Assembly (NCBI GenBank): GCA_021296115.1
Contig: JAGWBC010000002.1
Coordinates: 3,086-40,791 of the forward strand
Reading direction: 5' to 3'
DNA: 37,706 nucleotides
Source: Anaerolineae bacterium
Lineage (GTDB): Bacteria > Chloroflexota > Anaerolineae > Aggregatilineales > Phototrophicaceae
The position numbers were made by a program, and so were the translations under genes. Position 1 is the first letter of the stretch. Every line of letters begins with the position of its first letter. This document shows, in pieces, positions 1 through 17,945 of this stretch. Below the pieces are notes generated by a model that worked only from the letters and a program-made list of their open reading frames with translations, was not told the origin of the DNA and did not search any database.

Positions 1-2196
1 GGCATCGTGGACCTGCGCGGCGAATTCATCGACACGGCCTATTGGAGCCCGAGTGTGGTCACCGATGCGGCCGGCATGGCAACGATAGATCTGCGCCTGC
101 CGGATAATCTGACTACCTGGCGGCTGGATGCCCGCGCCTTGACCGAAGGGCGCGCCGGACGCCTGCTGGTCGGCGAGCAGACTTTCGATCTGCGCAGCAC
201 GCGTCCGCTGCTCATTCGCCCGCTGACGCCGCGCTTCTTCGTCGTGGGGGACAAGGCGCAGTTGGCGGCTATCATTAATAACAACACCGGCATGAATGTC
301 TCAGCCAGCGTTTCGCTTGAGACCAGCGCCGGTCTGAACCTGGCTGACGAGAGCTCGCTAGTCCAAGACCTGATGATTCCTGCCGGCGGCCGCAAGCGCC
401 TGACCTGGCTGGCGACGGTCGCGGATGTGGACACGGTCGCCCCTTCCTTTGTCGTGCGCAGCCAGGATGGCGCTTTCAGCGACGCCAGCATCTCACCGGT
501 CAGCGCAGACCGCGATGGCACGCTGCCGGTATACCGCTATGTAGCGCCGGCGGTGGTTGGCACGGCTGGAATGCTTGCGCAGGGTGGTGCGCGCGTGGAA
601 GCCCTGCGCTTGCCGCAGGACCGAACTGCGATCGACGGGCGGCTCAAGATTCGCTTGGATAAATCCTTGGCGGGCCTGACCGAAGAAAGCTTAACCTATC
701 TGGCAGCCGACACGCAGCATTTTCGCGAGTGTACCAGCACCATTGTCAGCCGATTCCTGCCCAACATCGTTGCCGTTCGCGCGCTTGATCAGATGGGCAT
801 TACGGATGCGGATTTGCGCGCCAGGCTGGATGGGCTGGTCACGGAAGGTTTGCAGGAACTCTACGCGCGGCAGTTAGCTGACGGCGGCTGGAGTTGGTGC
901 TCCTATCCCGAAGCGCAGGACTTGACGACAGCCTACGCGCTTTTGGGATTGGCCCAAGCCGCGGATGCCGGCTATCCGGTTGACGCCGCCGTCATCGGAC
1001 GCGCGCGGGCATATATTCGACAGGCCTTGATTAGGCCTTCACTGCGGCTGGAAAACTGGCGGCTGAATCGCCAGGCATTTATGTTGTACGCGCTGGCGCG
1101 ATCCGGCGCGGCTGATGTGGCGCGCAGCACGACGCTTTTCGAAAGCCGCGAGCGGCTGAACCTCGATGCCATCGCATTCCTGGCGCTGACGCTGCATAGC
1201 ATAAATCCGGAAGACGATTTTCGCCTGGAGGCCTTGACCCAGCTGATGCTTAACCGCGCCGTAACGCGGGCGACCGGAACCTTCTTTGAAGAGACTTATC
1301 AAGACCGCTGGAACTGGTCGTCGGATACCCGCTCGACAGCTCTGGTCTTAAATGCGCTCATCACGCTCCGACCTGAGAGCGAGCTGCTGCCCAATATCGT
1401 CAGACACCTGGCGAGCGCGCGCGTTGAACGAGGCGGCTGGGGCTCGCGCCAAGACGACGTCTGGTCAATCATCGCCTTGACGAACTGGATGCTGCACACT
1501 GGCGAATTCAAGGCCGATTATGCCTATAGCGTCTCCGTCAACGGTAGTGAAATCTTGCGCGACGCCGCCATGCCCGCTCATGAACAGCGAGCAGACGAGT
1601 TCAGCCTTGATTTCGCCGACTTGTTGATGTTGGAAACCAATACCATCGAATTCGAGCGCGGCGCTGGTGAAGGCGCCTTGTACTACACGGCTCATCTTCA
1701 CGCGAATCTTCCAGTGGACGAGATCCCGGCTGTCAATCGCGGTATTGATGTCACGCGCAGCTATACGCTTCTTGGGGATAACGCAGCGGGCTCAATTGAT
1801 CGCGCCGCCATTGGCGAAGCCGTGCAAGTTCGCTTGCGGCTGGTCGCGCCGCACAGCTTGCGCTACGTAGTAATAGAAGACTTCTTCCCCGCTGGCGCCG
1901 AAGCCATCAATCCCGAACTGGCGATTAGCCCGCAGTTGGGCACGCTGCCGGCTGGCGCGCGCATCGACCACGGCGACGCAGGTTGGGGATGGTGGTATTT
2001 CGATCATGTCGAGTTTCGCGATGAGAAGGCGGTCATCTACGCCAGCCATTTGCCGCCCGGCGTCTATGAGTATGTCTATAGCATCCGGCCCTCAGTCGCT
2101 GGCGAATATCAAGTGCTTCCGCCCGTCGCCAGGCAACTCTATTTCCCCGAGGTTTACGGGCGCGGAGAAGGCAGGTTGTTTACGATATCAGAGTAG
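1..2196 (+). CDS. Alpha-2-macroglobulin family protein, C-terminal part (5' truncated by window)
   Basis: The frame is open from base 1, so this is the 3' end of a larger gene; the GTG at 7 is internal. The first residues (DTAYWSPSVVTDAAGMA, then LPDNLTTWRLDARALTEG) match the A2M domain of bacterial alpha-2-macroglobulins. An alpha-toroid thioester-like domain follows, with GGWSW and GGWGSRQDDVWS repeats, and then the C-terminal receptor-binding-like region ending in a PPVARQLYFPEVYGRGEG stretch. Family members are large secreted or surface protease traps. At the thioester site (codons 730-741) the usual C-x-E-Q is C-T-S-T: the Cys is kept but the Glu and Gln are gone, so the internal thioester should not form. 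The gene ends 10 bp from a convergent gene. The family call is firm; a non-thioester trapping role is inferred. Confidence 0.9.
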   Translation, partial: GIVDLRGEFIDTAYWSPSVVTDAAGMATIDLRLPDNLTTWRLDARALTEGRAGRLLVGEQTFDLRSTRPLLIRPLTPRFFVVGDKAQLAAIINNNTGMNVSASVSLETSAGLNLADESSLVQDLMIPAGGRKRLTWLATVADVDTVAPSFVVRSQDGAFSDASISPVSADRDGTLPVYRYVAPAVVGTAGMLAQGGARVEALRLPQDRTAIDGRLKIRLDKSLAGLTEESLTYLAADTQHFRECTSTIVSRFLPNIVAVRALDQMGITDADLRARLDGLVTEGLQELYARQLADGGWSWCSYPEAQDLTTAYALLGLAQAADAGYPVDAAVIGRARAYIRQALIRPSLRLENWRLNRQAFMLYALARSGAADVARSTTLFESRERLNLDAIAFLALTLHSINPEDDFRLEALTQLMLNRAVTRATGTFFEETYQDRWNWSSDTRSTALVLNALITLRPESELLPNIVRHLASARVERGGWGSRQDDVWSIIALTNWMLHTGEFKADYAYSVSVNGSEILRDAAMPAHEQRADEFSLDFADLLMLETNTIEFERGAGEGALYYTAHLHANLPVDEIPAVNRGIDVTRSYTLLGDNAAGSIDRAAIGEAVQVRLRLVAPHSLRYVVIEDFFPAGAEAINPELAISPQLGTLPAGARIDHGDAGWGWWYFDHVEFRDEKAVIYASHLPPGVYEYVYSIRPSVAGEYQVLPPVARQLYFPEVYGRGEGRLFTISE

Positions 2197-3029: not shown

Positions 3030-4088
3030 TCACATCAGCTTGAGCAAGCGGGGCGCCAACTGTTCGTAAGTGTAATACAAGAGCGGGCTGCTAGCGAAAT
3101 CCCAGGCGCCGATGTGCCGTGTCAACACGCCGCGGAATCCGCGCTTGAATTGATACACGCCCCACAGGCTGTCGCTCTCGTCAAAGCTGTCGGGCGCGCC
3201 CCACATATCGTAGGTCGCATAACCTTGCGCCTTGGCCCACTTCATCGCCTCCCACTGCAAAGCGTAATTGGGCATGCGTCCGCGTTCTTCGTTGGCTGAC
3301 GCGCCGTAGAAATACCAGCACTTGCTGCCGAAGTGGAAGAGAATGACCTGCGCGATGGCTTCGCCCTGGTATTCGGCGATCAGGGCATGGGCCAGCCCGG
3401 CCTCCATGAAAGCGCGCCAAGCCCGCTGATAGTACGCGAGGGGACGGATCAGAAAGCCGTCGCGCTGCCCGGTGACCTGATAAAGCTGATAGAGCAGGGG
3501 CAGGTCGTCGACGCTGGCTAAGCGAACCGTGACATCCTTCTTGGCGGCGACCCGTACTTTACGGCGCGTGTTGCCGCTCATCGCCGCCAGAATTTCGTCC
3601 TGGGATCGCCGCAAGTCGATGCATAAGGTATTGCGGAATTGCACTTGCGAGCCGGAAAAACGCCAGCCACGCTTTCTCAGCAACGCCAAAACCTGTTGCC
3701 CTTTGATGTCGGCATGGTCGTCCTCGCCCCCCGGCAGGCCGGTGGCGGCGACGACATCCGGATCGATTTTCAGCCAGACGACGCCGAAGCGCGCGGCGCG
3801 CTGTTCCAGCTCGTCAAGTACTGCGTCGGCCAGGTCCAGGTCGGCATAGTCAAGCGCCGGGCCCTTGCTGACGACCATGACTTTCAGCGGGCCCAGCTTC
3901 CTGGTCGCCAAGCTGGCCTGCGCCACGACTCGCCCATCGCGTTCGAGAGCCAGGCGCTGCGGCTGCCAGCCGCCCGTGACGCGCTTGAACTCGCCCCATT
4001 CCCAAGTCTGCAAGATATGCGCGCCGGGCAGACTGCGCAGGTTTTCGTTCCAGCGATCGCGCTCCCTGATTTCCTTGACCTTAAGAAT
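3030..4088 (-). CDS. FemAB/FemX-type peptidoglycan aminoacyltransferase (second of pair), non-standard start
   Basis: A Fem-family transferase of the GNAT-like fold. These enzymes use aminoacyl-tRNA to add residues to the side chain of the third stem-peptide amino acid of lipid II. Family signatures include LQTWEWGEFK near the N-terminus, YQLYQVTGQRDGF, YQGEAIAQVILFHFG, YFYGAS, NYALQWEAMKWAKAQGY, YDMWGAP and GVYQFKRGFRG. A conventional start would be TTG at 4013, giving 327 residues and cutting off the conserved lead-in. The frame stays open upstream, encoding ERDRWNENLRSLPGAHILQT as in relatives. There is no ATG, GTG or TTG before the preceding stop, but AGGAAG (4095-4100) sits 6 nt before an in-frame ATT at 4086-4088. 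That start gives 352 residues, matching the 353-residue sister gene. Family certain; start tentative. Confidence 0.85.
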   Translation of the reverse strand: MLKVKEIRERDRWNENLRSLPGAHILQTWEWGEFKRVTGGWQPQRLALERDGRVVAQASLATRKLGPLKVMVVSKGPALDYADLDLADAVLDELEQRAARFGVVWLKIDPDVVAATGLPGGEDDHADIKGQQVLALLRKRGWRFSGSQVQFRNTLCIDLRRSQDEILAAMSGNTRRKVRVAAKKDVTVRLASVDDLPLLYQLYQVTGQRDGFLIRPLAYYQRAWRAFMEAGLAHALIAEYQGEAIAQVILFHFGSKCWYFYGASANEERGRMPNYALQWEAMKWAKAQGYATYDMWGAPDSFDESDSLWGVYQFKRGFRGVLTRHIGAWDFASSPLLYYTYEQLAPRLLKLM

Positions 4089-4108
4089 GATGGGCTTCCT
4101 TTTCGTAT

Positions 4109-5170
4109 TTAACGCCGAAACTTCAGGGCCGCCCTATACGCCGCGTATACCAGCGGATTCCAGGCCAGATCCCAGGTCCCCAACGTCCGCGTCACCTGGC
4201 CGCCCCAGCCGCGCTTGAAGCCGTATACGCCCCAAAGTCCGTCTTTGCGGCTCTTGAATTGCGCTTCCAGTGTCGCAACGTCAAAGTCCGGCACGCCCCA
4301 CAGATCGTAGTAGCGGCAGCCGCGCTGCTGGGCCCATTCTATCGCCGCCCACTGTATGCCATAGGTCGCGTACAAGTTGCCTTGCGCTCTTGAGGACGCC
4401 CCATAGAGATACCAGGCGGTGTCGCCGAGCGCGAAAACCATGATGGCGGCCAGCAAGTCATCATCGTGCTCGGCCAGCAGCAGCGTGCCGTACCGCGGCA
4501 TAAACAAGTCGTAGACCGCCTCATAATAGTCGGGGCTGTGTACGCCGAATGCATTACGCTCGCCGGTCTGCAGCATCAAGCTGCTGCACTGCTGCAAATC
4601 GCGGCGCTCGCCTTCCCGATACACGATAGGGCCCGCGCGGCTCTTGCGGATCTTGCGGCGCGTGCCCTGGTTCATCCGCCGCATTATGGCGCTGTCATCG
4701 CCGCTGATATCGATGACTATTGTGGTCGGCGGTTGAATCGTCTGCGGACTGGGCCGGAACCCGGCCTGAGACAGGTCCGATGCAGACAATGCCGTGTTAT
4801 GGCCCGGCTCAAGCTTTAGGAAGGCGGCGCCGGTTTCGCGGCGGATCGCCTGCCAAAGCCGCGGATAAAGCGATGAGTCGCTCGCGTAGGCGCCCATAGG
4901 CACGTAGGCCAACTGGCCAGCGCCGGCTGGCAAACGCTGCAGCAGCGCCAGCGCGCCGGCCTGAATGCCATGCTCGTCCGAGAGGGCGATGATGCGCGCA
5001 TCCCAGCCAAATTGCGATTTCAGCTCGCCCCATCGCGACAGTTGCAGGAGATGGCCATAGGGCTGCGCGCGCACGTAATCGTCCCAGGCGGTCGCGGCTG
5101 GCTGGCCAATGGCTAGTTGCTGAGATTGTGAAACAGTCATGAGTTCATTTTGGGGCAGCTTGATTTCCAT
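4109..5170 (-). CDS. FemAB/FemX-type peptidoglycan aminoacyltransferase (first of pair)
   Basis: 353 residues, paralogous to the next gene downstream. Shared landmarks are LLQLSRWGELKSQFGW (N-terminal Fem motif), MRRMNQGTRRKIRKS, LMLQTGERNAFGVH, AWYLYGASS, YGIQWAAIEWAQQRGC, YYDLWGVPDF, DGLWGVYGFKRGWGG and a C-terminal GTWDLAWNPLVY. It probably adds an amino acid to the peptidoglycan interpeptide bridge at the inner face of the membrane, with the paralogue adding a further residue. ATG 5170 has little Shine-Dalgarno complementarity; an internal ATG at 5140 is an alternative. It lies upstream of femX2 and phyH in an apparent minus-strand operon and is divergent from nuoA across 290 bp. Confidence 0.88.
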   Translation of the reverse strand: MEIKLPQNELMTVSQSQQLAIGQPAATAWDDYVRAQPYGHLLQLSRWGELKSQFGWDARIIALSDEHGIQAGALALLQRLPAGAGQLAYVPMGAYASDSSLYPRLWQAIRRETGAAFLKLEPGHNTALSASDLSQAGFRPSPQTIQPPTTIVIDISGDDSAIMRRMNQGTRRKIRKSRAGPIVYREGERRDLQQCSSLMLQTGERNAFGVHSPDYYEAVYDLFMPRYGTLLLAEHDDDLLAAIMVFALGDTAWYLYGASSRAQGNLYATYGIQWAAIEWAQQRGCRYYDLWGVPDFDVATLEAQFKSRKDGLWGVYGFKRGWGGQVTRTLGTWDLAWNPLVYAAYRAALKFRR

Positions 5171-5460: not shown

Positions 5461-5823
5461 ATGAACGTTTTGAACGAATGGGCATTTGTCGGCTTGTTTG
5501 CCGTGATGGCGCCGGTGTTCCCGGCCCTGCCTATCGTCATTGCCTGGATCTTCCGTCCGCGCAAACCGAACGTGCTCAAGAGTTCTACTTATGAATGCGG
5601 CGTTGAGACTATCGGCGACACCTGGGTGCAATTCCGCGTACAGTACTACATTTATGGTCTGATTTTCTTGGTTTTCGATGTCGAAATGGTGTTCTTATTC
5701 CCATGGGCGGTGGCCTATAACGAGATGAGCCTTTTTGGATTCATCGCCGGTTTTCTCTTTATTTTCTTGCTGACGGACGCGCTTTTCTACGCTTGGAAAA
5801 AGAACGCGCTGGACTGGAAATAG
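5461..5823 (+). CDS. nuoA: NADH-quinone oxidoreductase subunit A
   Basis: 120 residues, normal for NuoA. Three membrane helices are evident (about 8-30, 64-84 and 90-112). The hallmark YECGVE motif contains the conserved cysteine of the loop that contributes to the quinone-site region, and FRVQYYIYGLIFLVFDVEMVF is the classic TM2 signature. It is a membrane subunit of complex I at the junction between arms. AGGA sits 10 nt before the ATG. It is first in a cluster that jumps directly to nuoH: the nuoB, C and D genes that normally follow are absent. Confidence 0.96.
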   Translation: MNVLNEWAFVGLFAVMAPVFPALPIVIAWIFRPRKPNVLKSSTYECGVETIGDTWVQFRVQYYIYGLIFLVFDVEMVFLFPWAVAYNEMSLFGFIAGFLFIFLLTDALFYAWKKNALDWK

Positions 5824-5852: not shown

Positions 5853-7070
5853 ATGGACGAGCTGTGTACAGGTTTGTGCCGCCTCATGGTGGATTCCGGC
5901 GCGGATGCCGGGCTGGCGCAGTTTTTGTCATTGCTGGTCGGCGTGCTGCTTGTCAGCGGCGTGCCGCTGCTCACCGTCATTCTCCTGATTTGGATTGAGC
6001 GCAAGGTGGCCGCGCGTATTCAAGACCGCATCGGCCCGAATCGCGTTGGCCCCATCGGCTTGATGCAGACCTTCGCCGATCTTCTCAAACTGCTGGGCAA
6101 GGAAGACATTACGCCGACCAATGCCGACCGCTGGCTGTATAACGCCGCGCCGCTGGTGTCATTCGCCTCGGTCGTTCTCATTTGGGCGGTAGTGCCCTTC
6201 ACGCCCTTCCACTACGGCGTCGATCTCGAAATCGGCGCGTTATTCTTTGTGGCCATCGCCTCCTTCGGCACGCTGGCCATCATGGTCGCCGGCTGGGCCA
6301 GCAACAACAAATACGCGCTGCTGGGCGCTTTTCGCGTGGTGTCCCTGCTGGTAAGTTACGAGGTGCCCTTGGTCTTCGCCTTGCTTGTGCCGGTTTTGCT
6401 AGCCGGCAGCATGAGCATGCTCGACATTGTTAACGCGCAGACGGGCATGTGGTTCGTTGTCTTGTCGCCGCTAGCGTTTGTCATCTTCTACGTGTCCTCG
6501 CAAGCCGAGACCGGGCGCGCGCCGTTCGACTTGATCGAGGCGGAGTCCGAACTGGTGGCCGGCTTCAATATCGAATACTCGGGTATGAAATTCGGCATGT
6601 TCTTCGCAGCCGAATTCTTGCACGTTTTTACAAACGGCATCTTGATGGCGCTGCTATTCTTCGGCGGCTGGTTGGGTCCGCTGTACTACGAATCGCCGCT
6701 GATTGCTTTCGCCTGGCTGGGCTTGAAGGGCGGCATCATCTACTTGACGACGCTATGGCTGCGCAATACTGTGCCGCGCTTGCGCATCGACCAGATCATG
6801 GCTTTCAACTGGAAGTTTCTGGTGCCGCTTTCCATCGCCAACTTGATCTTTGTATCGGCCGCGCTGAAAGTGATGCAGGAGCTTGGCTGGGCGCCCCGCG
6901 AGATGATTGGCGCCAGTTTTGTTGATTTGCTGCCGACCACGCTGATCCTGCTGCTCATCAACGGCGCGATGATCATCTACCTCTTGGGCATTTTGCGCAA
7001 GAAGGGCCGAGAGGCGCGCCGAGAATCGCCGTCGACGCGCGCAACGCTGGCCCAAGCGGCGGCGGACTAG
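5853..7070 (+). CDS. nuoH: NADH-quinone oxidoreductase subunit H
   Basis: 405 residues with about eight to nine helices, slightly longer than most NuoH. Signatures are IWIERKVAARIQDRIGPNRVGP near the N-terminus, FADLLKLLGKEDITP, SQAETGRAPFDLIEAESELV (the acidic loop lining the quinone-to-proton coupling path), and LWLRNTVPRLRIDQIMAFNWKFLVPLS near the C-terminus. NuoH forms the quinone-binding chamber with NuoB and NuoD, neither of which is encoded here. The C-terminal tail is charged and rich in Arg and Ala. GGGAG precedes the start by 8 nt. The gene follows nuoA by 29 bp and is followed at 11 bp by nuoJ. Confidence 0.96.
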   Translation: MDELCTGLCRLMVDSGADAGLAQFLSLLVGVLLVSGVPLLTVILLIWIERKVAARIQDRIGPNRVGPIGLMQTFADLLKLLGKEDITPTNADRWLYNAAPLVSFASVVLIWAVVPFTPFHYGVDLEIGALFFVAIASFGTLAIMVAGWASNNKYALLGAFRVVSLLVSYEVPLVFALLVPVLLAGSMSMLDIVNAQTGMWFVVLSPLAFVIFYVSSQAETGRAPFDLIEAESELVAGFNIEYSGMKFGMFFAAEFLHVFTNGILMALLFFGGWLGPLYYESPLIAFAWLGLKGGIIYLTTLWLRNTVPRLRIDQIMAFNWKFLVPLSIANLIFVSAALKVMQELGWAPREMIGASFVDLLPTTLILLLINGAMIIYLLGILRKKGREARRESPSTRATLAQAAAD

Positions 7071-7081
7071 GGGGCGGCGAG

Positions 7082-7594
7082 ATGGAACTCAACGCAGTCA
7101 CAATCGGGTTCGTCGTGTTTACCATATTCACGCTTGGCGGCGGTTTTGGCGTCGTGACCACGCGCAACCTCTTCCAAGGCACGATTTGGCTGATGCTCAG
7201 TCTCTTCGGCGTAGCGGGTTATTTCGTCCTGCTGAGCGCGCCTTTCCTGGCGGCTGTGCAGGTGCTGGTTTACATCGGCGCCATCGCTATCCTGATCACC
7301 TTCGCGGTCATGCTGACGCGCAGCGTGACGCGCATCAAAGCGCGCTATGTACGCCTCGTACCCAGTTTCATCGGGTCGCTGGCGCTTTTTCTGGTTTTAC
7401 TGCTCGGCATCACCATACCGATATTCGGCGGTCAATTGCCGGAATCGGCGCCGGAGTACGTCGCCACCACGCGCGAGCTCGGCGCGGCGCTGGTGGACGA
7501 GAACGGCTATGTCGTGCCTTTCATGCTGGCATCGGTATTGTTGACGGCAGCCATGATCGGCGCGATTTTCATCGCCCGCGACGAGACGACGTAG
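7082..7594 (+). CDS. nuoJ: NADH-quinone oxidoreductase subunit J
   Basis: 170 residues with five predicted membrane helices. TTRNLFQGTIWLMLSLFGVAGYFVLL and FLAAVQVLVYIGAIAILITFAVML (the latter bearing the pi-bulge helix TM3 region) are diagnostic of NuoJ/ND6. The subunit belongs to the central hydrophilic axis of the complex I membrane arm. It follows nuoH by 11 bp and is separated from nuoK by 14 bp. NuoI, which normally lies between H and J and carries two Fe-S clusters, is missing from this position. Confidence 0.95.
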   Translation: MELNAVTIGFVVFTIFTLGGGFGVVTTRNLFQGTIWLMLSLFGVAGYFVLLSAPFLAAVQVLVYIGAIAILITFAVMLTRSVTRIKARYVRLVPSFIGSLALFLVLLLGITIPIFGGQLPESAPEYVATTRELGAALVDENGYVVPFMLASVLLTAAMIGAIFIARDETT

Positions 7595-7608: not shown

Positions 7609-7926
7609 ATGGCGCCTCTCTGGATGTATCTGGCGGTCGCTGCGGCCTTGTTTTCACTGGGTGTCTTTGGCGTGCTGGCGCGGCGCAACGCTGTCGCGAT
7701 TTTGATGAGTGTTGAGCTGATGCTGAATGCGGTCAATATCAACCTAGTGGCGTTCTGGCGCTACAGCGAAACGGGAACCGACCTGCTGCTTAACGGCTAC
7801 GCCTTCACCGCCTTTGTGCTGATAGTGGCGGCGGCGGAGGCTGCCGTCGGCTTGGCGATCATCATCACGGTTTATCGCAACCGGCGTTCGGTAATACCGG
7901 AACAAGCCGTCGCGCTGAAAGGGTAA
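7609..7926 (+). CDS. nuoK: NADH-quinone oxidoreductase subunit K
   Basis: 105 residues with three helices, normal for NuoK. The two buried glutamates of the proton path are present, in SVELMLNAVNINLVAF (TM2) and VAAAEAAVGLAI (TM3). The frame is open much further upstream, but that stretch overlaps nuoJ; the real start is ATG 7609, preceded by a strong GGGAGGA at 7594-7600. NuoK pairs with NuoJ in the membrane arm. The nuoL gene begins 8 bp later. Confidence 0.95.
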   Translation: MAPLWMYLAVAAALFSLGVFGVLARRNAVAILMSVELMLNAVNINLVAFWRYSETGTDLLLNGYAFTAFVLIVAAAEAAVGLAIIITVYRNRRSVIPEQAVALKG

Positions 7927-7934
7927 GGGCCCTG

Positions 7935-10277
7935 ATGGATTTCCTTAACGACCCGAACGCATTGCCTTGGCTTATCCCGGCCGGGCCCTTGCTGGCCTTT
8001 CTGATTATCACGCTGATCACCAACAAGTCGAAGCTGACGCCGGCCACGGACCAGCATGAATACGGCGGTCATCATCCGGATTACGAGGGCATGTCCGTGC
8101 CGGTGGTTCACCCCTGGAGCCGCGTAATCAGCGTCGTTGTGGGCATGGTCGGTGTCATCGCGGCGCTCTTGATTAGTTGGCAGACGCTTAGTATCGCCTC
8201 TCAGTTGCATCACATCGGCGAGGAAGTGCTGGCAAGCAGCATCGTCTGGATGGACACCGGCGACACCACGTTTAATATGGGCGTGCTGGTTGACCCGGCC
8301 ACCGTGATTATGCTGGTGATGGTGCCAATCGCCGTCTTGATGATATTCATTTACTCCATCGGTTATATGGCGCACGACCCGCGGCAGGCTCGCTTTTTCG
8401 CGCTCATTTCGCTTTTCGCCGGCGCCATGCTGACGCTGGTGGTGGCCGATAATGTGTTGCTGCTATTCGTCGGCTGGGAGATTATGGGCGTCTGTTCCTA
8501 CATGCTTATCGGCTTCTGGTTCGAGAAGGAAAGCGCCTACAAAGCCGCCATCAAAGCATTTACCACTACACGCATCGCTGACGTGGTCATGCTCTTGGGC
8601 ATCGCCTACCTATACAGCATCACTGGCACCCTTAGTTTCCGCGAAATTATGTACAATCCGGAAACGCTGGACATGCTGGCCACGACCACGCCTATCATTT
8701 TTGGCGGCTGGACCGTCAGCGCGGCTAGCATCATCGGCATCTTTCTCATCATCGGCACGGTGGGTAAATCGGCGCAGTTCCCGTTGCACGTTTGGCTGCC
8801 CGACGCCATGGAAGGGCCTACGCCCGTTAGCGCGATGATCCACGCCGCGGCCATGGTCTCGGCTGGCATCTTTTCGCTCATTCGTTTGTATCCGCTATTT
8901 GCCGCCGGCGGCGATCCACATCACGGCCTTATGACCGAGCCGCTGGCATTCATGGCGGTGGTCGGCGCATTCACGGCTTTGCTCGCGGCAACAATGGCGG
9001 TGGCGCAGAACGATGTCAAAGCTGTGCTGGCCTATTCGACGATTTCGCAGTTGGGCTTCATGATGGCGGCCTTGGGCATCGGCGCCTATATCGCGGCCGC
9101 CTTCCATCTCATCACCCACGCTTTCTTCAAAGCCCTGCTTTTCATGGCGGCCGGCTCGGTGATTCACGGCATGGAGCATGGCGAGCACCACGTACACGAA
9201 CACGCTCATGGACATCCTTCCCCTGATGCTTCGGGAGAAACGAGGGGGGTAGAGCACTTTGACCCGCAGGATATGTTTAATATGGGCGGCCTGCGCAAGA
9301 CCATGCCGGTCACCTTTTGGACATTCTTGATCGGCGGCTTGTCGCTATCCGGCTTGCCGATCATCACCGCCGGATTCTGGTCCAAAGACGAGATTCTGGC
9401 GGACGCCTGGCTGGGCATTGAGAAATACGGCAGCGGCGCCCATGCGCTGGTTTTTGTGCTGCTGGCCCTGGCGGCCTTCATGACCGCCTTTTACACCATG
9501 CGGCAGATATCGCTGACCTTCGGCGGCGAGCCGCGCACTGAAGCCGCCAAACATGCCAGCCTGGGGCAGGGACTCATCAGCTTTACCATGACGCTGCCGC
9601 TGATCATTCTGGCCGCGTTCGCCATCGTTGCCGGCTTCGTCGGCGTGCCGACAGATTTTCCGGTGCTGGGTCCGATCTTCTCGCCGGAGTACAACGCCTT
9701 TCATCATCTGGTGATCGAAGCGCTGCCGCTGTCCGAGTCGACCGCCGCCTTCGCCTCCTTGCCCGATTATCACCCGCACGCGCCGCCCTTTAACATCGTG
9801 CCCGTCGCCACTTCGTTTATGGTGGCGCTGCTGGGTTTGTGGCTGGGATACATGGTCTATTGGCGCAATCCGCTCAAAGCCGGGCAGAGCGATCCGCTGG
9901 TGAAGAGCCTGGGTCCGCTGCATCCCTTGTTCAAGAACCGCTATTACCTGGACGACATTTATGGCGATGTATTCGTCAAGCCGTCGCAATGGCTGGCGCG
10001 GCAGGTAATCACATTCCTCGATCGCGGCATTATTGACGCCATCTTGCATATCATCGCGCGGATTTCCACCTGGCTGGGCGACTTGACCAAGGTCCTGAAC
10101 CTCTGGCTCATCGACGGGGTCGGCGATGGCATCCCGATTGCCATCTTCAACTTCGGCGGCTGGCTGCGGCGTATGCAAACAGGACGGATTCAGCAGTACC
10201 TGCTGCTGGTGCTGATCGCTGCCGTTCTTATCGGCATCGTCCTGGTTCTGTCGTCGGGCGCGGCGCTGGCGCAATAG
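7935..10277 (+). CDS. nuoL: NADH-quinone oxidoreductase subunit L, elongated
   Basis: 780 residues against about 610-660 for most NuoL. Proton-channel residues are present: Glu in LFVGWEIMGVCSYMLIGFW, Lys in IGTVGKSAQFPLHVWLPDAM, the His/Lys region ITHAFFKALLFMAAGSVIHG, and SKDEIL in TM12. There are three additions: a hydrophilic loop near residues 33-57; a His-rich loop after VIHG (about residues 415-440); and a lengthened segment between LDRGIID (from residue 694) and RRMQTG (to about 749). The latter spans 55 residues from DRG to QTG, against 28 in Thermus Nqo12 as I recall it. This segment is part of the lateral helix HL that clamps the antiporter-like subunits. Start ATG 7935 has a weak ribosome site. 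Confidence 0.95.
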   Translation: MDFLNDPNALPWLIPAGPLLAFLIITLITNKSKLTPATDQHEYGGHHPDYEGMSVPVVHPWSRVISVVVGMVGVIAALLISWQTLSIASQLHHIGEEVLASSIVWMDTGDTTFNMGVLVDPATVIMLVMVPIAVLMIFIYSIGYMAHDPRQARFFALISLFAGAMLTLVVADNVLLLFVGWEIMGVCSYMLIGFWFEKESAYKAAIKAFTTTRIADVVMLLGIAYLYSITGTLSFREIMYNPETLDMLATTTPIIFGGWTVSAASIIGIFLIIGTVGKSAQFPLHVWLPDAMEGPTPVSAMIHAAAMVSAGIFSLIRLYPLFAAGGDPHHGLMTEPLAFMAVVGAFTALLAATMAVAQNDVKAVLAYSTISQLGFMMAALGIGAYIAAAFHLITHAFFKALLFMAAGSVIHGMEHGEHHVHEHAHGHPSPDASGETRGVEHFDPQDMFNMGGLRKTMPVTFWTFLIGGLSLSGLPIITAGFWSKDEILADAWLGIEKYGSGAHALVFVLLALAAFMTAFYTMRQISLTFGGEPRTEAAKHASLGQGLISFTMTLPLIILAAFAIVAGFVGVPTDFPVLGPIFSPEYNAFHHLVIEALPLSESTAAFASLPDYHPHAPPFNIVPVATSFMVALLGLWLGYMVYWRNPLKAGQSDPLVKSLGPLHPLFKNRYYLDDIYGDVFVKPSQWLARQVITFLDRGIIDAILHIIARISTWLGDLTKVLNLWLIDGVGDGIPIAIFNFGGWLRRMQTGRIQQYLLLVLIAAVLIGIVLVLSSGAALAQ

Positions 10278-10289
10278 GGAGACGCATTC

Positions 10290-11924
10290 ATGATTGATGT
10301 TTTCGGGATAGACGCGCTCTCGGTTCTGGTCTTCGGCCCGGCTCTTAGCGCCTTTGTCGTAGCGTCGCTCGCCTCGCTGGGCCCCAGCAAACAAGTCGGG
10401 CGCTGGGTCGCGCTGATTCTGTCGCTGCTGCTGGCGCTGCTATCCATCAAGGTCTTTTTCGATTACCAAGCCGCCGGCCTGGCGATTGGCGATGATCAGT
10501 TCATCGTGACGCAAGACAGCGCCTGGTTCGAAGCGCTGAATTCGCGCTGGACGCTCGGCATTGACGGCATCAGCGCTGTCATGGTTTTGCTCACCGGCAT
10601 CTTGACGCCGCTGGCGATCCTGGCCAGTTGGAATATCGAAGATCGCTCGAATATGCACTTGGCGCTGCTTCTATTATTTGAGACCGGCAGCATGGGCGTT
10701 TTCGTGGCCATGGACCTGATGGTCTTCTTCCTCTTCTATGAGTTGACGCTGGTGCCAATGTACTTCCTCATCAATCAATGGGGCAGCCTGCCAAAAGCCG
10801 GCGTGAAGTTTAGCGGGCGCTTCTACGCGTCGACCAAGTTCATGCTCTATTCCTTTGGCGGCACGCTGGGCATGCTGCTGGCGACCCAGCTGATCGGCTG
10901 GTCGGCCGGTACCTTCAACATTACTGCTTTGACCGAGACCTGGCCGCTCTTCCGGCAAGGCGAGGCGCTACTGGGCACGGACGTCAGCACAGTGAAGGCG
11001 CTGGCATTTGTTGGTTTCTTCGTGGCTTTCAGCATCAAAATACCGATCTGGCCTTTCCACACCTGGCTGCCTGATGCTCATGGCGAAGCGCCGACGGCCG
11101 GCTCCATGCTGCTGGCTGGCATAATGCTGAAACTAGGCGCCTACGGCTTCATTCGCTTGGTTATCCCCTTCTTCCCGGATGTCTGGCTGACCGAAGTGGC
11201 GATCATCGGCGTCAATGTGGCTACGCTCTTCGCGATTCTGTCTGTAGTCGGCATTGTGCTGGGGGCCTTCGCCGCCTTTGGCCAGACCGACATCAAACGT
11301 CTGGTCGCTTACAGCTCGGTCAATCACATGGGTTTCGTCGGCATCGGCATCGCCGTGATGGCGCAAACTTACGCGCAGATTTGGACGGGCGCCAATCCCA
11401 ATCCCGACCTGCAATCGGCGATCCTGGCGACCAACGGTACAGTCCTGCAAATGTTCAATCACGGGTTAAGCTCGGCGGGCATGTTTTTGCTCGCGGGCGC
11501 GCTTTATCACAAAACGCATACGCGCGAGCTTGGCGATTACGGCGGGCTGTGGGTGAAGGCGCCGGTGATGGGCGCGATCTTGCTCTTTACCAGTTTCGCC
11601 AGCCTGGGTTTGCCCGGCCTGAACGGATTCGTCAGCGAATTTTTGATTGTTCGCGGCGCCTGGCCGGTCTTCACCACGCTGACCGCCATCGCTATGATCG
11701 GTTTGCTTTTCACAGGCGGCTACATCCTCAAAGGCATTCGCGCCGTTCTTCATGGTCCCTTTAACATGCGCTGGCGCGATTACAATCTGGAGCTGACGCC
11801 GGCAGAGCTGCTGGGCATGGCGCCGCTGCTGGTATTGATGCTGTTGACCGGTGTCTATCCGAATTGGATCCTGCCGATTATCAACACCACGGTGTCGACC
11901 ATATTCGCCGGCTTGGCGAGCTAG
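10290..11924 (+). CDS. nuoM: NADH-quinone oxidoreductase subunit M, copy 1
   Basis: 544 residues and about 14 helices. The channel residues are standard: Glu in FLFYELTLVPMYFLINQWG, Lys250 in FSIKIPIWPFHTWLPDAH (TM7), Lys in GIMLKLGAYGFIR (TM8), and Glu in PGLNGFVSEFLI (TM12). Loop 6-7 holds a moderate insertion around FNITALTETWPLFRQGEALLGTD. This copy looks like a full proton-pumping antiporter module of complex I. It follows nuoL by 12 bp and is followed by the second NuoM gene after 10 bp. Confidence 0.93.
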   Translation: MIDVFGIDALSVLVFGPALSAFVVASLASLGPSKQVGRWVALILSLLLALLSIKVFFDYQAAGLAIGDDQFIVTQDSAWFEALNSRWTLGIDGISAVMVLLTGILTPLAILASWNIEDRSNMHLALLLLFETGSMGVFVAMDLMVFFLFYELTLVPMYFLINQWGSLPKAGVKFSGRFYASTKFMLYSFGGTLGMLLATQLIGWSAGTFNITALTETWPLFRQGEALLGTDVSTVKALAFVGFFVAFSIKIPIWPFHTWLPDAHGEAPTAGSMLLAGIMLKLGAYGFIRLVIPFFPDVWLTEVAIIGVNVATLFAILSVVGIVLGAFAAFGQTDIKRLVAYSSVNHMGFVGIGIAVMAQTYAQIWTGANPNPDLQSAILATNGTVLQMFNHGLSSAGMFLLAGALYHKTHTRELGDYGGLWVKAPVMGAILLFTSFASLGLPGLNGFVSEFLIVRGAWPVFTTLTAIAMIGLLFTGGYILKGIRAVLHGPFNMRWRDYNLELTPAELLGMAPLLVLMLLTGVYPNWILPIINTTVSTIFAGLAS

Positions 11925-11934
11925 GACTGCATTC

Positions 11935-13656
11935 ATGGATGGAACTGGATTCTCAGTTCTCACAGCGATCATCTTCATCCCGATCATTGCGGGTGTGGTT
12001 ATCCTTTTCCTCGATCGCAAGAACCGTGATCTCGTTCGCGGCGTCGGCATCACGGCCGCCTCGGCAGTGTTGGCGCTTTCGCTGGCCGTCTTCTTCGGTT
12101 ACGACAATTTCGTCAAGTCTGAAGATGGCTTAATTAGCCAACAGCAAGCCCTGCTTAAATCCGGCGCGGAGCTCAGCGGCGCGCAGATGTTCGCTGATGC
12201 GCTGGCCTTTGAGCAGCGTATCGTCTGGGTGGAATCGCTCGGCATCGCTTACCACGTTGGCGTCGACGGCGTATCTGCGCCGATGGTGCTGCTGACCGGC
12301 ATGGTGGCGGTGGCCGGCGTCTTGATTTCCTGGAATATCCAGGACCGCCTGCGCGAATTTATGGCCTTCTTTATGTTCCTAGTGGCCGGCGTATACGGCG
12401 TATTTATCGCGGTCGATCTCTTCATGTTGTTCTTTTTCTATGAGCTGGCGATCTTCCCCATGTACCTCTTGATCGCGGGTTGGGGCTGGGTCAAGCTGCG
12501 CGAGTACGCGGCCATGAAGCTGACGCTCTACATTTTGGTCGGCTCGGTCTTTGCGCTTGTCGGGGCGGTAGCCATGTACTTCGCCGCGGGCGCCTTCTTC
12601 GCTGGCGGAGGCGCTGATGTCTTTCATGCGGCGCTCGAAAGCGGGCTGCTGCCGGCGGATAGCCAGCCCTACAGTTGGAGCATCACCCAGTTGACGCTGG
12701 CTGCGGAAAATGGCGCCTATTCGCTTGAGATTCTGGGCATTGAAGGTTTGAGTTTCGCGCGCTTCTGGTTCCCCTTCATGTTTATGGGATTCGGCGTATT
12801 GGCCGGTGTCTTCCCCTTCCACAATTGGTCGCCGGACGGCCACGTGGCGGCGCCTACAGCTGTCTCCATGATTCACGCCGGCGTGCTGATGAAGGTCGGC
12901 GCATTCGCCGCCTTGCGCGCGGGAGTGCAGCTGCTGCCAGATGGCGCGGACACGCACTTGCCCTGGATCGTATTTTTGACGCTGATTAATGTGGTGTACG
13001 GCGCGCTCATCGCTTTCCGTCAGCGCGACTTCAAATATGTCATCGGCTTCTCGTCGGTCAGCCATATGGGGCTGGTTAGCATGGGCTGGGCCACGATGAA
13101 CCTCACCGGCATGACCGGCGCCGGCATTCAGATGTTCAGCCACGGCGCGATGACCGCGCTGTTCTTCGGCGTCGTCGGCATGGTTTACGATCGTTCGCAC
13201 ACCCGCGATATACCCAGCTTGGGCGGCTTCATCAAGGTGATGCCTTGGGTGGGCGTGGCCTTTGTCATCGGCGGTTTGACCAGCATGGGTATGCCCGGCT
13301 TAAGCGGCTTCATAGCGGAGTTCCCGATCTTCCAAGGCATGTGGGCCGCGTCGGAGCAGATCACGCTGCAGCTGGGCAGCTTCCAGCTGAGCAACTATTA
13401 CAGCGTCATGGTCATCATTGCCGCTTCCGGCATCGTCATTACGGCTGCATACGTGTTGCGCGTCGCCGGGCAAGTCTTCTTTGGCGAATTCGACGTCGAG
13501 CGCTTCCACGATGTCGGCAACATCGACATGACCGACCGCATTGTGCTGATCATTCTGGGCGCGCCCTTGATCATCCTGGGCTTGTATCCGCCCATCATGG
13601 CGCCCATGATCGAGTCCGGCATACGACCCCTTATCGCCTTGTTGGGAGGTGGCTAG
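11935..13656 (+). CDS. nuoM2: NADH-quinone oxidoreductase subunit M, copy 2 (TM7 lysine replaced)
   Basis: 573 residues. The upstream extension of the frame overlaps nuoM1; ATG 11935 with AGGA 8 nt before it is the start. It belongs to the NuoM family: FFYELAIFPMYLLIAGWG (Glu kept), AGVLMKVGAFAALRAG (TM8 Lys kept), and MGMPGLSGFIAEF (TM12 Glu kept). At the position of the conserved TM7 lysine the sequence reads FGVLAGVFPFHNWSPDGH, so Lys is replaced by Leu289. Loop insertions occur at about residues 60-100 and 225-275. Its sequence is clearly distinct from nuoM1, so this is an old paralogue rather than a recent duplication. Such second NuoM proteins have been described in complex I variants with an extra pump module. 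The stop codon directly abuts nuoN. Confidence 0.92.
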   Translation: MDGTGFSVLTAIIFIPIIAGVVILFLDRKNRDLVRGVGITAASAVLALSLAVFFGYDNFVKSEDGLISQQQALLKSGAELSGAQMFADALAFEQRIVWVESLGIAYHVGVDGVSAPMVLLTGMVAVAGVLISWNIQDRLREFMAFFMFLVAGVYGVFIAVDLFMLFFFYELAIFPMYLLIAGWGWVKLREYAAMKLTLYILVGSVFALVGAVAMYFAAGAFFAGGGADVFHAALESGLLPADSQPYSWSITQLTLAAENGAYSLEILGIEGLSFARFWFPFMFMGFGVLAGVFPFHNWSPDGHVAAPTAVSMIHAGVLMKVGAFAALRAGVQLLPDGADTHLPWIVFLTLINVVYGALIAFRQRDFKYVIGFSSVSHMGLVSMGWATMNLTGMTGAGIQMFSHGAMTALFFGVVGMVYDRSHTRDIPSLGGFIKVMPWVGVAFVIGGLTSMGMPGLSGFIAEFPIFQGMWAASEQITLQLGSFQLSNYYSVMVIIAASGIVITAAYVLRVAGQVFFGEFDVERFHDVGNIDMTDRIVLIILGAPLIILGLYPPIMAPMIESGIRPLIALLGGG

Positions 13657-15153
13657 ATGGAATTTGGTCTCTGGGCACAGCTGCCTTCCGTTCTGCCGGA
13701 AGTCGGCCTGACCGCGCTGGCGATCGTGGTGTTGTTCGCGGATCTTTACGGTTCAGCGGTGACGCGCCGCAATGTCGTCACTATTTCCGCGGTAGGCATG
13801 GCTTTGCTAGCGCTCGTGCCCCTGATCTGGCTGCCTGATCCCGCGCTCTTCGAAAACGGCACGCTGCTCTGGGGCGGCATGGTCAACTACGACCCGCTGT
13901 CGCAGATCTTCAAGGTGATGCTGTTGCTGGCGGGCGCAGTGACCTGTTTGATGGCGACCGGCGACAAGGGCGTCGGCGACAAGGGCGAATTCTATCTGAT
14001 CGTTATCGTGGCCACGCTCGGCGGCGTCATGATGTCGAGCGCCAGCGACTTGATTCTGGTATTTGTGGCGCTGGAGACCCTGTCGATTCCACTGTACATG
14101 CTGGCCAGCTTCCGCCGCGGCGATACGCGCTCGGCTGAGAGCGGCATGAAGTATTTCCTTTACGGCGCTTTTGCCTCTGCCATCATGCTCTTCGGTTTCA
14201 GCTTGCTCTACGGCTTCACTGGCACGACCAATCTGGCCGGCATTGCGGCGTCATTGGGCAGCGGTATCGGCGACAGCATCGTCGGCGTGATGACCGCGCT
14301 GGTGATGGTCGTGGTCGGCTTCGGCTTCAAGATCAGCGCCGTGCCCTTCCACTTTTGGACGCCCGATGTCTACGAAGGCGCGCCAACCCCGGTAACGGCA
14401 TTCGTCAGCGTATCCAGCAAGGCCGCCAGCTTTGCGCTGCTGGTACGTTTCCTGACAGCCGCCTTCCCGGTTGAGCTAGCTATCGGCGGCGTCATCATCC
14501 AAGATTTCTGGGTTAATCTGCTCATCGTCGTCTCGATCGTGAGCATGACCCTGGGCAACGTAGTCGCCCTGCGCCAGAGCAATATCAAGCGCCTGCTGGC
14601 TTATTCATCGATCGCCCAAGCCGGCTACACGCTCATCGGCGTGGCCGCGCTGCAGGGCGCGAATGACAGCCTGGCGGTAGCCTCCGTGTCCTTCTATATG
14701 TTCATGTATATCTTCACCAATCTGCTGGTGTTCGGCGGCGTCATCCTCTTCATTTCGGCGACGGATTCGGAAGAGATCAGCGATATGGCCGGTCTTAATC
14801 GGCGCAGTCCTTGGCTGGCGTTGTTCATCACCATCGGCCTGCTTTCGCTGGGCGGGATTCCGCCGGCAGCCGGATTCTTTGGAAAGTTCTTCTTGTTCCA
14901 GGCGGCGGTCAACGCCAACCTGGTGGGTCTGGCGCTGATCGCGGTCACCAATGCCATCATCGCGCTCTACTATTATTTAGTGGTCATCAAAGTGATGTAT
15001 GTCGATGTCAGCCCGGACGATGACAAGCCGATTGCGCTCCCGCGCTCCTATGCCTGGTCCTTGGGCATCACAGCGCTGGTTGTCATATTGTTGGGGACGG
15101 TCGCTGTGACGCCGATTTACGAATGGGCCACTTTGGGCGCGGCCGGTTTATGA
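13657..15153 (+). CDS. nuoN: NADH-quinone oxidoreductase subunit N
   Basis: 498 residues and about 14 helices. NuoN hallmarks are ALETLSIPLYMLASFRRGD (TM5 Glu), GFGFKISAVPFHFWTPDVYEGAPTPV (TM7 Lys), RQSNIKRLLAYSSIAQAGY, and GGIPPAAGFFGKFFLFQAA (TM12 Lys). It is the antiporter-like subunit nearest the quinone site. The ATG immediately follows the nuoM2 stop codon, and GGGAGGTGG at the end of nuoM2 acts as the ribosome site. It is the last nuo gene, 97 bp before atpZ. Confidence 0.96.
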   Translation: MEFGLWAQLPSVLPEVGLTALAIVVLFADLYGSAVTRRNVVTISAVGMALLALVPLIWLPDPALFENGTLLWGGMVNYDPLSQIFKVMLLLAGAVTCLMATGDKGVGDKGEFYLIVIVATLGGVMMSSASDLILVFVALETLSIPLYMLASFRRGDTRSAESGMKYFLYGAFASAIMLFGFSLLYGFTGTTNLAGIAASLGSGIGDSIVGVMTALVMVVVGFGFKISAVPFHFWTPDVYEGAPTPVTAFVSVSSKAASFALLVRFLTAAFPVELAIGGVIIQDFWVNLLIVVSIVSMTLGNVVALRQSNIKRLLAYSSIAQAGYTLIGVAALQGANDSLAVASVSFYMFMYIFTNLLVFGGVILFISATDSEEISDMAGLNRRSPWLALFITIGLLSLGGIPPAAGFFGKFFLFQAAVNANLVGLALIAVTNAIIALYYYLVVIKVMYVDVSPDDDKPIALPRSYAWSLGITALVVILLGTVAVTPIYEWATLGAAGL

Positions 15154-15250: not shown

Positions 15251-15520
15251 ATGAAGCGAAATAACAATCCCCTTTCGACATATGGATTGGTTGCGGGGGT
15301 TGTTGGGCAGGTCGGATGTTTAGTCCTGCTGGTTATTCTTGGAACGATTTTGCTCGGCCTGGCATTGGATGAGGCCCTAGGGACAGGCCCGACTTTCATA
15401 TTCGTGATGCTGCTGGTCAGCGTCCCCTTGAATCTGGCGGTTCTGTTCTTTTATACGCGTCATAAAGCCAGGCAGCTGCAGGGCGCTGCCAGACAGAAGG
15501 AGGAAGATATAAGTGAATAG
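15251..15520 (+). CDS. atpZ: AtpZ/AtpI-type F0F1 ATPase accessory protein
   Basis: 89 residues, two membrane helices forming a hairpin (about residues 10-35 and 43-62), and a charged C-terminal tail. The pattern LGTILLGLALDEALGTGPTF resembles the ATPase gene 1 (AtpZ) family, small proteins encoded ahead of atpB in many bacteria and implicated in Fo assembly or cation handling. An upstream GTG at 15242 is in frame, but ATG 15251 begins the conserved part. The ribosome site is poor. Its 3' end overlaps the start of atpB by 8 bp, which suggests translational coupling. The family call rests on topology, motif and position. Confidence 0.7.
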   Translation: MKRNNNPLSTYGLVAGVVGQVGCLVLLVILGTILLGLALDEALGTGPTFIFVMLLVSVPLNLAVLFFYTRHKARQLQGAARQKEEDISE

Positions 15521-16931
15521 TTTTTGGAACGGAAAACGCCGTTTCGTCGCTTTACTCATGTTCCTGGGTGGTGTGTTCGTCGCGCTGCGCGTTCCACCGG
15601 TCATACCCTTCATCCAGCTGCCCGGCGAGAAGTTCCCGGCAGGCTACGATATCCCCTTCCTGGATATCCGCCTGACGAATACTTTTGTCGGCTCGGTCAT
15701 CGTCTGGATTGTGCTGCTCCTATTCGTGGTCTACGTCACCCGGCGCCGGCCCAAAGATGGCAACGAAGTGCCTCCAGGCGGCTTCTACAACATGTTCGAG
15801 ATGCTCTTCGAGGGCTTGATGGGTTTCGTCGGCGGTATCGCTGGCGGCCGTCACTTTCGCTTGATCTTCAACATGTTTATGACGATTTTCCTGGTCGTGT
15901 TGCTGGCCAACTGGATGGAGCTTGTGCCCGGGGTCGACACCATCGGCTTCATTCATCCGCACGTCAAGGAAAAGTACGACGTGGAGAAGGATGAGTACAA
16001 GGTAGTCACAACCGACGGCTATGAGATTTATCAGGGCTTCCTTGGCATCTCCTACGTCAACGGACAGTGCGACTGGATCAGCCCGGCCGACGAAGCGGCT
16101 GCTGATGAAGCGGCGCTGACTGCGGCGGCAGCGGCGGCCAAGGCTGTCGAAATGGACCTGAGCCAGGACGCCGCCTATGCTCGTTATCAAGCCGAGCACG
16201 ACGACCACGGCGAAGGCGAAGCGACTGGCGATGCCCACGGCGACGATACGCACGCTGGGGAAGCGGTCGAGTCTGACGAAGCCGCGGCGGCCTACGACGA
16301 AGTGCTGGCTGCGCGCCTCGCTGAGAAGCAAGCGCGCAGGGACCGCAGTTGCTACACCGGTGTCGCGCCGGCGCCATGGGAAACTGGCGGCGACGATCAT
16401 GAGGACGAAGGCGAACATGCCGACGAGAAACACGACATCCTGCTGCATCCAGACCCGCGCAGTGAAGAGGCGAAACATGTGCCTTGGGTCGTCTTGCCTT
16501 TTGTGCGTGTGCCTTCCACCGATCTGAACATGACGCTGTCTATCGCCTTGATTGCCTTCGTCATGATTCAGTACATCGGTTTCAAGGCGCTGGGCATCGG
16601 CTATCTGACCAAGTTCTTCAACTTCTCCACGCTCTTCAAGTCGCCTTTGGGCGGTATTGATGTGGCGGTAGGTCTGCTGGAACTGATAGGCGACTTCGCC
16701 AAAATCCTGTCGTTCAGCTTCCGTCTCTTGGGGAATATCTTCGCCGGGTCGATTCTGCTCTTCGGCATGAGCTTCCTGGTGCCGATTTTGCCCTGGCCCT
16801 TCTTCATCCTGGAGTTCTTCGTCGGTGTCATTCAGGCGCTGGTATTCGCCCTGTTGACGGCAATCTTTATGAATCTGGCGACGGTCAGCCATCATCACGA
16901 TGATGAGCATGACCATGCCGAAGCACACTAG
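15513..16931 (+). CDS. atpB: ATP synthase subunit a with large acidic/His-rich insert
   Basis: 472 residues, against about 240-300 normally. The Fo core is intact: the ANWMELVPG helix end, STDLNMTLSIALIAF, the essential stator arginine in LSFSFRLLGNIFAGSILL, and the final FFVGVIQALVFALLTAIFMNL helix. Between VPGVDTIGF (to about residue 146) and STDLN (residue 335) lies an insert of about 185 residues rich in Ala, Asp, Glu and His, with two cysteines (NGQCDWIS and RDRSCYTG). By standard topology this TM2-TM3 loop faces the outside. There is also an extra hydrophobic N-terminal segment (about 10-28) and a His/Asp-rich C-terminal tail. Start is GTG 15513, with a strong AAGGAGG 9 nt before it, overlapping the atpZ stop. 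Confidence 0.95.
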   Translation: MNSFWNGKRRFVALLMFLGGVFVALRVPPVIPFIQLPGEKFPAGYDIPFLDIRLTNTFVGSVIVWIVLLLFVVYVTRRRPKDGNEVPPGGFYNMFEMLFEGLMGFVGGIAGGRHFRLIFNMFMTIFLVVLLANWMELVPGVDTIGFIHPHVKEKYDVEKDEYKVVTTDGYEIYQGFLGISYVNGQCDWISPADEAAADEAALTAAAAAAKAVEMDLSQDAAYARYQAEHDDHGEGEATGDAHGDDTHAGEAVESDEAAAAYDEVLAARLAEKQARRDRSCYTGVAPAPWETGGDDHEDEGEHADEKHDILLHPDPRSEEAKHVPWVVLPFVRVPSTDLNMTLSIALIAFVMIQYIGFKALGIGYLTKFFNFSTLFKSPLGGIDVAVGLLELIGDFAKILSFSFRLLGNIFAGSILLFGMSFLVPILPWPFFILEFFVGVIQALVFALLTAIFMNLATVSHHHDDEHDHAEAH

Positions 16932-17205: not shown

Positions 17206-17234
17206 GCTGAGCTAGAGACTCACTGGAGGAAATG

Positions 17235-17945
17235 ATGAGCGTACTTGACAATCTGGGTATCAATCCCGGTTTGATGTTGATCTGGCTGATCGCCTTTATC
17301 GTACTGTACACGGTGATGACGCGCTTCATCTATGATCCGCTGACCAACGTCTTGAACCAACGCCGTAACCGCATCGCCAAAGGTCTGGAAGATGCGGCGG
17401 CCGCGGCGCGGGCTCGTGAAAACGCCGAGGCTGAAGCCGAGAAGATCCTGGCGCAGGCGCGCGCCGAAGCGCAGAAGGTCATCGATGAGGCGCGCGGGCG
17501 CGGCGAAGAAGTCGCCGGCACGATCGAGCAGGATGCCCGCCAGGAAGCGGCCAAGATTCAATACGATGCGCAGAACGAAGCCGTGGCCATTCGCAATCAG
17601 GAATTGGGCAACTTGCGGGAGCAGGTGCTGAATATCTCGGTGGCCGTAGCCAGCCGCATCCTGGATGACAGCATCAGCAAGACCAAGCAGAAGTCGCTGG
17701 TGAACAGCTTTATCGCTGATTTGCCGGAAGGCGCCACGGGTCTTAGCGGCAGTGTGGAAGTCGTCAGCGCGATGCCCTTGACGGACGCCGAGCAGAAGAA
17801 AGTCCAGTCCTCAATCGGCGCCGATGAAACCGAATTCACGGTGGATCCCTCGATTCTGGGCGGATTGATCGTGCGCTGGTCAGGCGGCATGGTCGATGGC
17901 AGCGTTCGCTCGCAATTGAACGAATTGGCGCGCAGCCTGAATTAG
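17235..17945 (+). CDS. atpF: ATP synthase b subunit fused to delta C-terminal domain
   Basis: 236 residues. The N-terminus is a standard b subunit: one membrane helix (about 10-30), then RFIYDPLTNVLNQRRNRI and a long Ala/Glu/Arg-rich coiled coil to about residue 145. From about residue 172 the sequence changes to a delta-type C-terminal domain: SVEVVSAMPLTDAEQKKVQS, then VDPSILGGLIVRWSGGMVDG and SVRSQLNELARSLN. Delta normally links b to the top of alpha3beta3 and has an N-terminal helical domain, which is absent here. Mycobacteria have a related fusion of b-type and delta sequences in another arrangement. ATG 17235 is preferred over 17232 because GGAGG (17225-17229) is then 5 nt away. The gene is followed by a terminator and not by atpA. 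Confidence 0.9.
   Translation: MSVLDNLGINPGLMLIWLIAFIVLYTVMTRFIYDPLTNVLNQRRNRIAKGLEDAAAAARARENAEAEAEKILAQARAEAQKVIDEARGRGEEVAGTIEQDARQEAAKIQYDAQNEAVAIRNQELGNLREQVLNISVAVASRILDDSISKTKQKSLVNSFIADLPEGATGLSGSVEVVSAMPLTDAEQKKVQSSIGADETEFTVDPSILGGLIVRWSGGMVDGSVRSQLNELARSLN

Follow-up and report, generated by a model that had tools for sequence, protein, structure and literature searches.

In the Chloroflexota type of 2M complex I, the membrane-arm genes lie in the order nuoLM1M2N, nuoBCDI is encoded apart and nuoC and nuoD are fused (PMC7117926), and in Chloroflexus aggregans both complex I sets are transcribed (PMC8004040). The number of protons that complex I moves, and the subunits that carry them, are still debated; for 2M complexes a fifth proton per cycle has been put forward in the literature as a hypothesis, and the literature searched offered neither biochemical nor structural proof of a 2M complex. 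Two generalizations about antiporter-like subunits bear on the question. The TM8 lysine has been described as the sole protonatable TM8 residue in MrpD-like subunits (PMC7419157), and each antiporter-like subunit is said to contain a Lys/Glu pair that gates the coupling wave (PMC9271201).

The window, the whole stretch of 37,706 nucleotides analysed here (G000:C240:3086-40791), comes from a 3.9-Mb Chloroflexota MAG of 302 contigs that is 83% complete and whose closest named relatives are Chloroflexota/Anaerolineae MAGs (best M2 identity 92-93%). Between 5461 and 15153 it carries nuoA, H, J, K, L, M1, M2 and N, and genes for ATP synthase subunits follow (Table 1). The start of nuoM2 is likely an ATG at about 11935, the mechanical ORF opening at a GTG at 11851. 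An earlier, sequence-only reading had singled out 10014-13656, which runs from the DRG motif of NuoL through the end of M2. Downstream, the ATP synthase subunit a (15513-16931) contains a long mid-protein insertion (~residues 150-320) that is acidic and rich in His, a single ORF at 17232-17945 combines an ATP-synthase b-type domain with a partial delta (OSCP) domain, and a Mur ligase gene comes next at 18080, the remaining F1 operon not being adjacent. The left edge of the window (7-2196) encodes the C-terminal part of an alpha-2-macroglobulin-like protein and is unrelated to complex I.

Table 1. Complex I genes and features of the window discussed in the text.
Feature	Position	Strand	Basis
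nuoA	5461..5823	+	NCBIfam NF005839, E 1.5e-32, under curated cut-off
nuoH	5853..7070	+	NCBIfam NF004741, 333 bits, over cut-off 305
nuoJ	7082..7594	+	NCBIfam NF005168, E 2.5e-28, under curated cut-off
nuoK	7609..7926	+	105 aa from MAPLWMYL, start inferred; NCBIfam NF004320, 96.7 bits, over cut-off 57
nuoL	7935..10277	+	780 aa; TIGR01974, 557 bits; NuoL fold, best Z 42.8 to 6khj_F
NuoL lateral helix	9939..10175	+	Residues 669-747, single continuous predicted helix (AlphaFold2); alignment of 144 NuoL; Thermus sequence
nuoM1	10290..11924	+	544 aa; TIGR01972 NDH_I_M, 460 bits, cut-off 263.8; canonical pump residues, clade support 97
nuoM2, extra antiporter-like subunit	~11935..13656	+	573 aa; TIGR01972 NDH_I_M, 411 bits, cut-off 263.8; structure model
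M2 codon Leu289, TM7 lysine site (E. coli NuoM K234)	12799..12801	+	Leu/Met in 108/108 M2
M2 codon His314, E. coli position 259, TM8	12874..12876	+	Ionisable; His in 94/108 M2
nuoN	13657..15153	+	TIGR01770, 392 bits, over cut-off 332.6

We conclude that the window very probably holds the membrane-arm operon of a Chloroflexota 2M-type complex I, with four antiporter-like subunits and a NuoL helix that would span the extra one, because it combines two NuoM, a long NuoL and the Chloroflexota gene order nuoLM1M2N with a fused NuoCD on another contig. These are features by which 2M complexes have been recognized (PMC7117926, PMC8004040), and the 2M design suggested by the sequence-only reading is upheld by them. 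The other contig, C119, carries nuoB, the fused nuoCD (625 aa) and nuoI, and in 11 members of the same class a nuoB-nuoCD-nuoI cluster with fused nuoCD likewise stands apart from nuoEFG. In five near-closed genomes no NuoF was found beside the 2M operon; since the MAG is incomplete, this genome taken alone leaves room for a missing nuoEFG. Contig C86 (L016/L020) encodes another complex I of this genome, of the canonical kind and accompanied by nuoE, F and G. NuoB and NuoI of this genome (L019:608-1450, 3399-4283) end in similar basic C-terminal tails (TPW[AS]E...RRxxALxRKA); a conserved docking tail common to the two proteins was considered and rejected, as the likeness is confined to this genome and absent in the NuoB of 11 relatives.

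The 55 residues that the sequence-only reading counted from DRG to QTG in NuoL (10014-10178), against 28 in Thermus Nqo12, are exact, and the lateral helix is thus ~27 residues longer than that of Thermus, which agrees with the insertion of ~26-28 aa that marks 2M complexes. When 144 NuoL were aligned and measured between the E. coli VFVKP...NG anchors, the stretch fell into two groups of 42-47 aa and 70-77 aa with none between, the window NuoL having 72, and a split into two separate groups argues that the difference in length is not due to chance. All 90 NuoL from 2M operons lie in the long group, and 47 from one-NuoM operons in the short one. AlphaFold2, run with an alignment of 38 sequences, predicts a continuous helix of 79 residues followed by TM16 (752-779), so that in this single-chain model of moderate confidence (mean pLDDT 81 overall, 58-82 across the lateral-helix stretch) the insertion prolongs one continuous lateral helix. 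Matches of the model to E. coli NuoL at ~2.2 A rmsd end near model residue 693, and structural alignments that span the helix end are mostly at 5-8 A, as would be expected were the far end displaced. In E. coli, inserting 6-7 residues into the helix between NuoL and M strongly cut pumping (PMC3274701), and by analogy the extra residues are probably not without effect.

It had been held that a longer lateral helix is what an additional NuoM would require. This stands in one direction, as every 2M operon has the long helix, and fails in the other, since 16 single-NuoM operons have it as well, so that the long helix alone does not show an extra NuoM: it is necessary for a 2M complex and not diagnostic of one. 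In the main survey 7 of the 54 one-NuoM NuoL had a stretch of 71-76 aa, and nine more bring these to 16 Chloroflexota operons, the holders including the C86 complex of the same genome, a family of the same class (f2), a family (f14) called Dehalococcoidia-like from the small size of its genomes, and locus L083; the close one-NuoM relatives L105 and L106 have a stretch of 46. A NuoL tree from which the helix was left out shows no fewer than four changes of the length state, some of them in lineages whose genomes yielded no second NuoM, and a similar mismatch of helix length and 2M state has been published for Ca. Manganitrophaceae (PMC9040806). A hidden orphan NuoM that could fill the long NuoL of one-NuoM complexes was sought among the PF00361 matches of this genome and of the complete G005 and G036, and none came to light; an extra pair in G109 (L204) consists of one NuoL-like and one NuoN-like member and is not NuoM. 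One-NuoM complexes with an equally long helix therefore counsel caution against 2M calls made from helix length alone.

Several of these one-NuoM operons may be described in their own right. The NuoL of the canonical C86 complex (L016:7860-10328) has a lateral-helix stretch of 75 aa, and family f2 genomes have a similar, aromatic-rich NuoL insertion. Small (1.5-1.9 Mb) Dehalococcoidia-like genomes (L068, L190, L191 and L192) carry a one-NuoM operon with a stretch of 76 aa, and the complete genome G036 yielded no second NuoM. In L083 (G125), another one-NuoM operon, NuoL groups with 2M NuoL and the single M is sister to M1, and this locus has either lost M2 or is an intermediate.

As the sequence-only reading proposed, two diverged NuoM lie in tandem; both score over the family cut-off, and the second lies within the same operon. 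In a tree of 89 NuoM, M1 (support 97) and M2 (support 96) form distinct clades, each present in the class of the window and in more distant Chloroflexota families; the pair is thus old and not a recent tandem copy. M2 together with two single M2-like NuoM (support 100) is sister to single NuoM from other Chloroflexota, and this grouping and the separate clades together rule out a recent tandem nuoM duplication. The order L-M1-M2-N is kept wherever the genes share a contig among 80 named Chloroflexota loci, although the surveyed genomes are related and such counts are not of independent events. In two further loci (L056 and L057) the operon is L-M-N, its sole NuoM is M2-type, with Leu in TM7 and His in TM8, and its NuoL belongs to the short group (46 aa). 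This arrangement may be ancestral or may have arisen by reduction of a 2M complex, and it suggests that an M2-type NuoM can serve in a complex I.

The main difference between the two NuoM concerns the residues thought to move protons. At E. coli NuoM position 234, in TM7, 107 of the 108 M2 proteins have Leu and the remaining one has Met, a change that occurred once on the NuoM tree; Lys is found there in 103/103 M1 and 53/53 ordinary single NuoM, E. coli included. The TM5 Glu/TM7 Lys ion pair is therefore broken in M2, Glu144 being kept and Lys234 replaced by Leu. In TM8, 94 of the 108 M2 carry His259 and the other 14 carry Glu263, the two being mutually exclusive; all 156 M1 and ordinary single NuoM lack both. 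With rare exceptions M2 keeps Glu144, Lys265, His322, His348 and Glu407 (E. coli numbers), so that the central TM8 Lys, the bridging His and the distal TM12 Glu are all in place; in L042 and L051, Lys265 and His348 are missing at the aligned places and a Lys lies one residue away. The M2 counts describe Chloroflexota sequences. Decay of M2 to a pseudogene was rejected, since its reading frame is open in the loci viewed and nearly all other pump residues are retained. The structure model of M2 is an ordinary NuoM fold (pLDDT 90.5, Z 48.9 to NuoM 8e9g_M), and a sequence search returned no close solved relative. Judged by these residues, M2 is at odds with both generalizations given above, that of a sole protonatable TM8 lysine (PMC7419157) and that of a Lys/Glu pair in each subunit (PMC9271201). 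We found no mention of the TM7 lysine change in the mostly open-access literature searched; Chadwick et al. (2018) may already have noted it.

We propose that NuoA, H, J, K, L, M1, M2 and N would join the NuoB, NuoCD and NuoI encoded on C119 in a quinone-reducing, ion-pumping complex, with M1 and M2 assembled in one arm that would be driven by quinone chemistry. As this complex has no NuoEFG module of its own, NADH is probably not the donor of its electrons. M2 would be the fourth antiporter-like subunit; were the arm laid out in gene order, its likeliest place would be between M1 and NuoN, and the gain of ~27 residues (~40 A) in the NuoL helix would span it. The loss of the TM7 lysine argues against the standard pump cycle in M2, and the higher proton-to-electron ratio that the sequence-only reading predicted does not follow from gene content, since that lysine is absent in 108/108; as a hypothesis, a fifth proton moved via M2 becomes less certain on the same ground. 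The likeliest reading, to our mind, and one more probable than not, is that M2 still moves a proton, with its gate re-formed around TM8.

A less likely alternative is that M2 sits in the arm as a spacer or relay that would pass the electrostatic signal on without pumping, so that four antiporter-like subunits would still yield ~4 H+ per 2 e-. The universal absence of the TM7 lysine would fit this, as would L042 and L051, where Lys265 and His348 are gone from the aligned positions as well, though with a Lys one residue off, and so would the description of the Lys/Glu pair as the coupling-wave gate of every antiporter-like subunit (PMC9271201). However, the five other pump residues are nearly invariant, an ionisable TM8 residue at one of two positions in all 108 M2 resembles re-engineering rather than decay, and an M2-type protein is the only NuoM of L056 and L057.

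Another possibility is that M1 and M2 belong to alternative complexes with one NuoM each, comparable to the cyanobacterial NDH-1 isoforms. Relatives with a sole M2-type (L056, L057) or a sole M1-like NuoM (L083) would be in keeping with this, but it is very unlikely, as a single NuoL and a single NuoN flank the M pair in every complete locus, always in the same order, and NuoL is short in L056 and L057 and long in all 2M operons. It is likewise most unlikely that the long lateral helix has nothing to do with the second NuoM and reflects lineage drift or the binding site of some other partner. The 16 one-NuoM operons at 71-76 aa and the repeated state changes on the NuoL tree, some in lineages where no second NuoM was found in the genome, speak for this; against it, the helix is long in 90/90 2M operons, its extra length fits one further antiporter unit, and 2M types of other phyla have a similar insertion (PMC9040806).

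A fourth subunit without the ion-pair lysine would be a natural test of the Lys/Glu pair, which may be a requirement for pumping or serve one form of coupling only. We put at about even the chance that throughout the Chloroflexota 2M complexes M2 departs by nature from the TM5-Glu/TM7-Lys rule, its gate rebuilt with a TM8 His or Glu, so that it would either pump by another route or relay the coupling signal without pumping; if so, current wave or domino models of complex I would have to take it into account.

Among known systems, the Nitrospira 2M complexes (clade 3; PMC6606698, PMC12342949) likewise have two NuoM and a lengthened NuoL, but differ in gene content, have separate NuoC and NuoD and are reported to be of independent origin. 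The Ca. Manganitrophaceae Complex_I_1 to _3 (PMC9040806) have a lateral-helix insertion of ~26 aa, the long helix occurring in non-2M complexes too, and in Complex_I_3 two MrpD-like subunits replace NuoL. The canonical 14-subunit complex of C86 shares its subunits and a long NuoL helix (75 aa) with the window, but its only NuoM has the full set of pump residues, its NuoC and NuoD are unfused, and it has a NuoEFG of its own. The closest likeness is to the 2M complexes of cultured Chloroflexota (Chadwick et al., 2018, as relayed in PMC7117926 and PMC8004040), such as those of Chloroflexus aggregans (Cagg_1620-1631) and Anaerolinea thermophila, which in these accounts share nuoLM1M2N, a separate nuoBCDI, the lack of nuoEFG and a long NuoL, with the fused nuoCD shared with the Anaerolinea type. 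As no feature in those accounts distinguishes the window operon from them, it is a species-level addition to this group, and the change in the TM7 and TM8 residues of M2 is common to the window and to all relatives checked.
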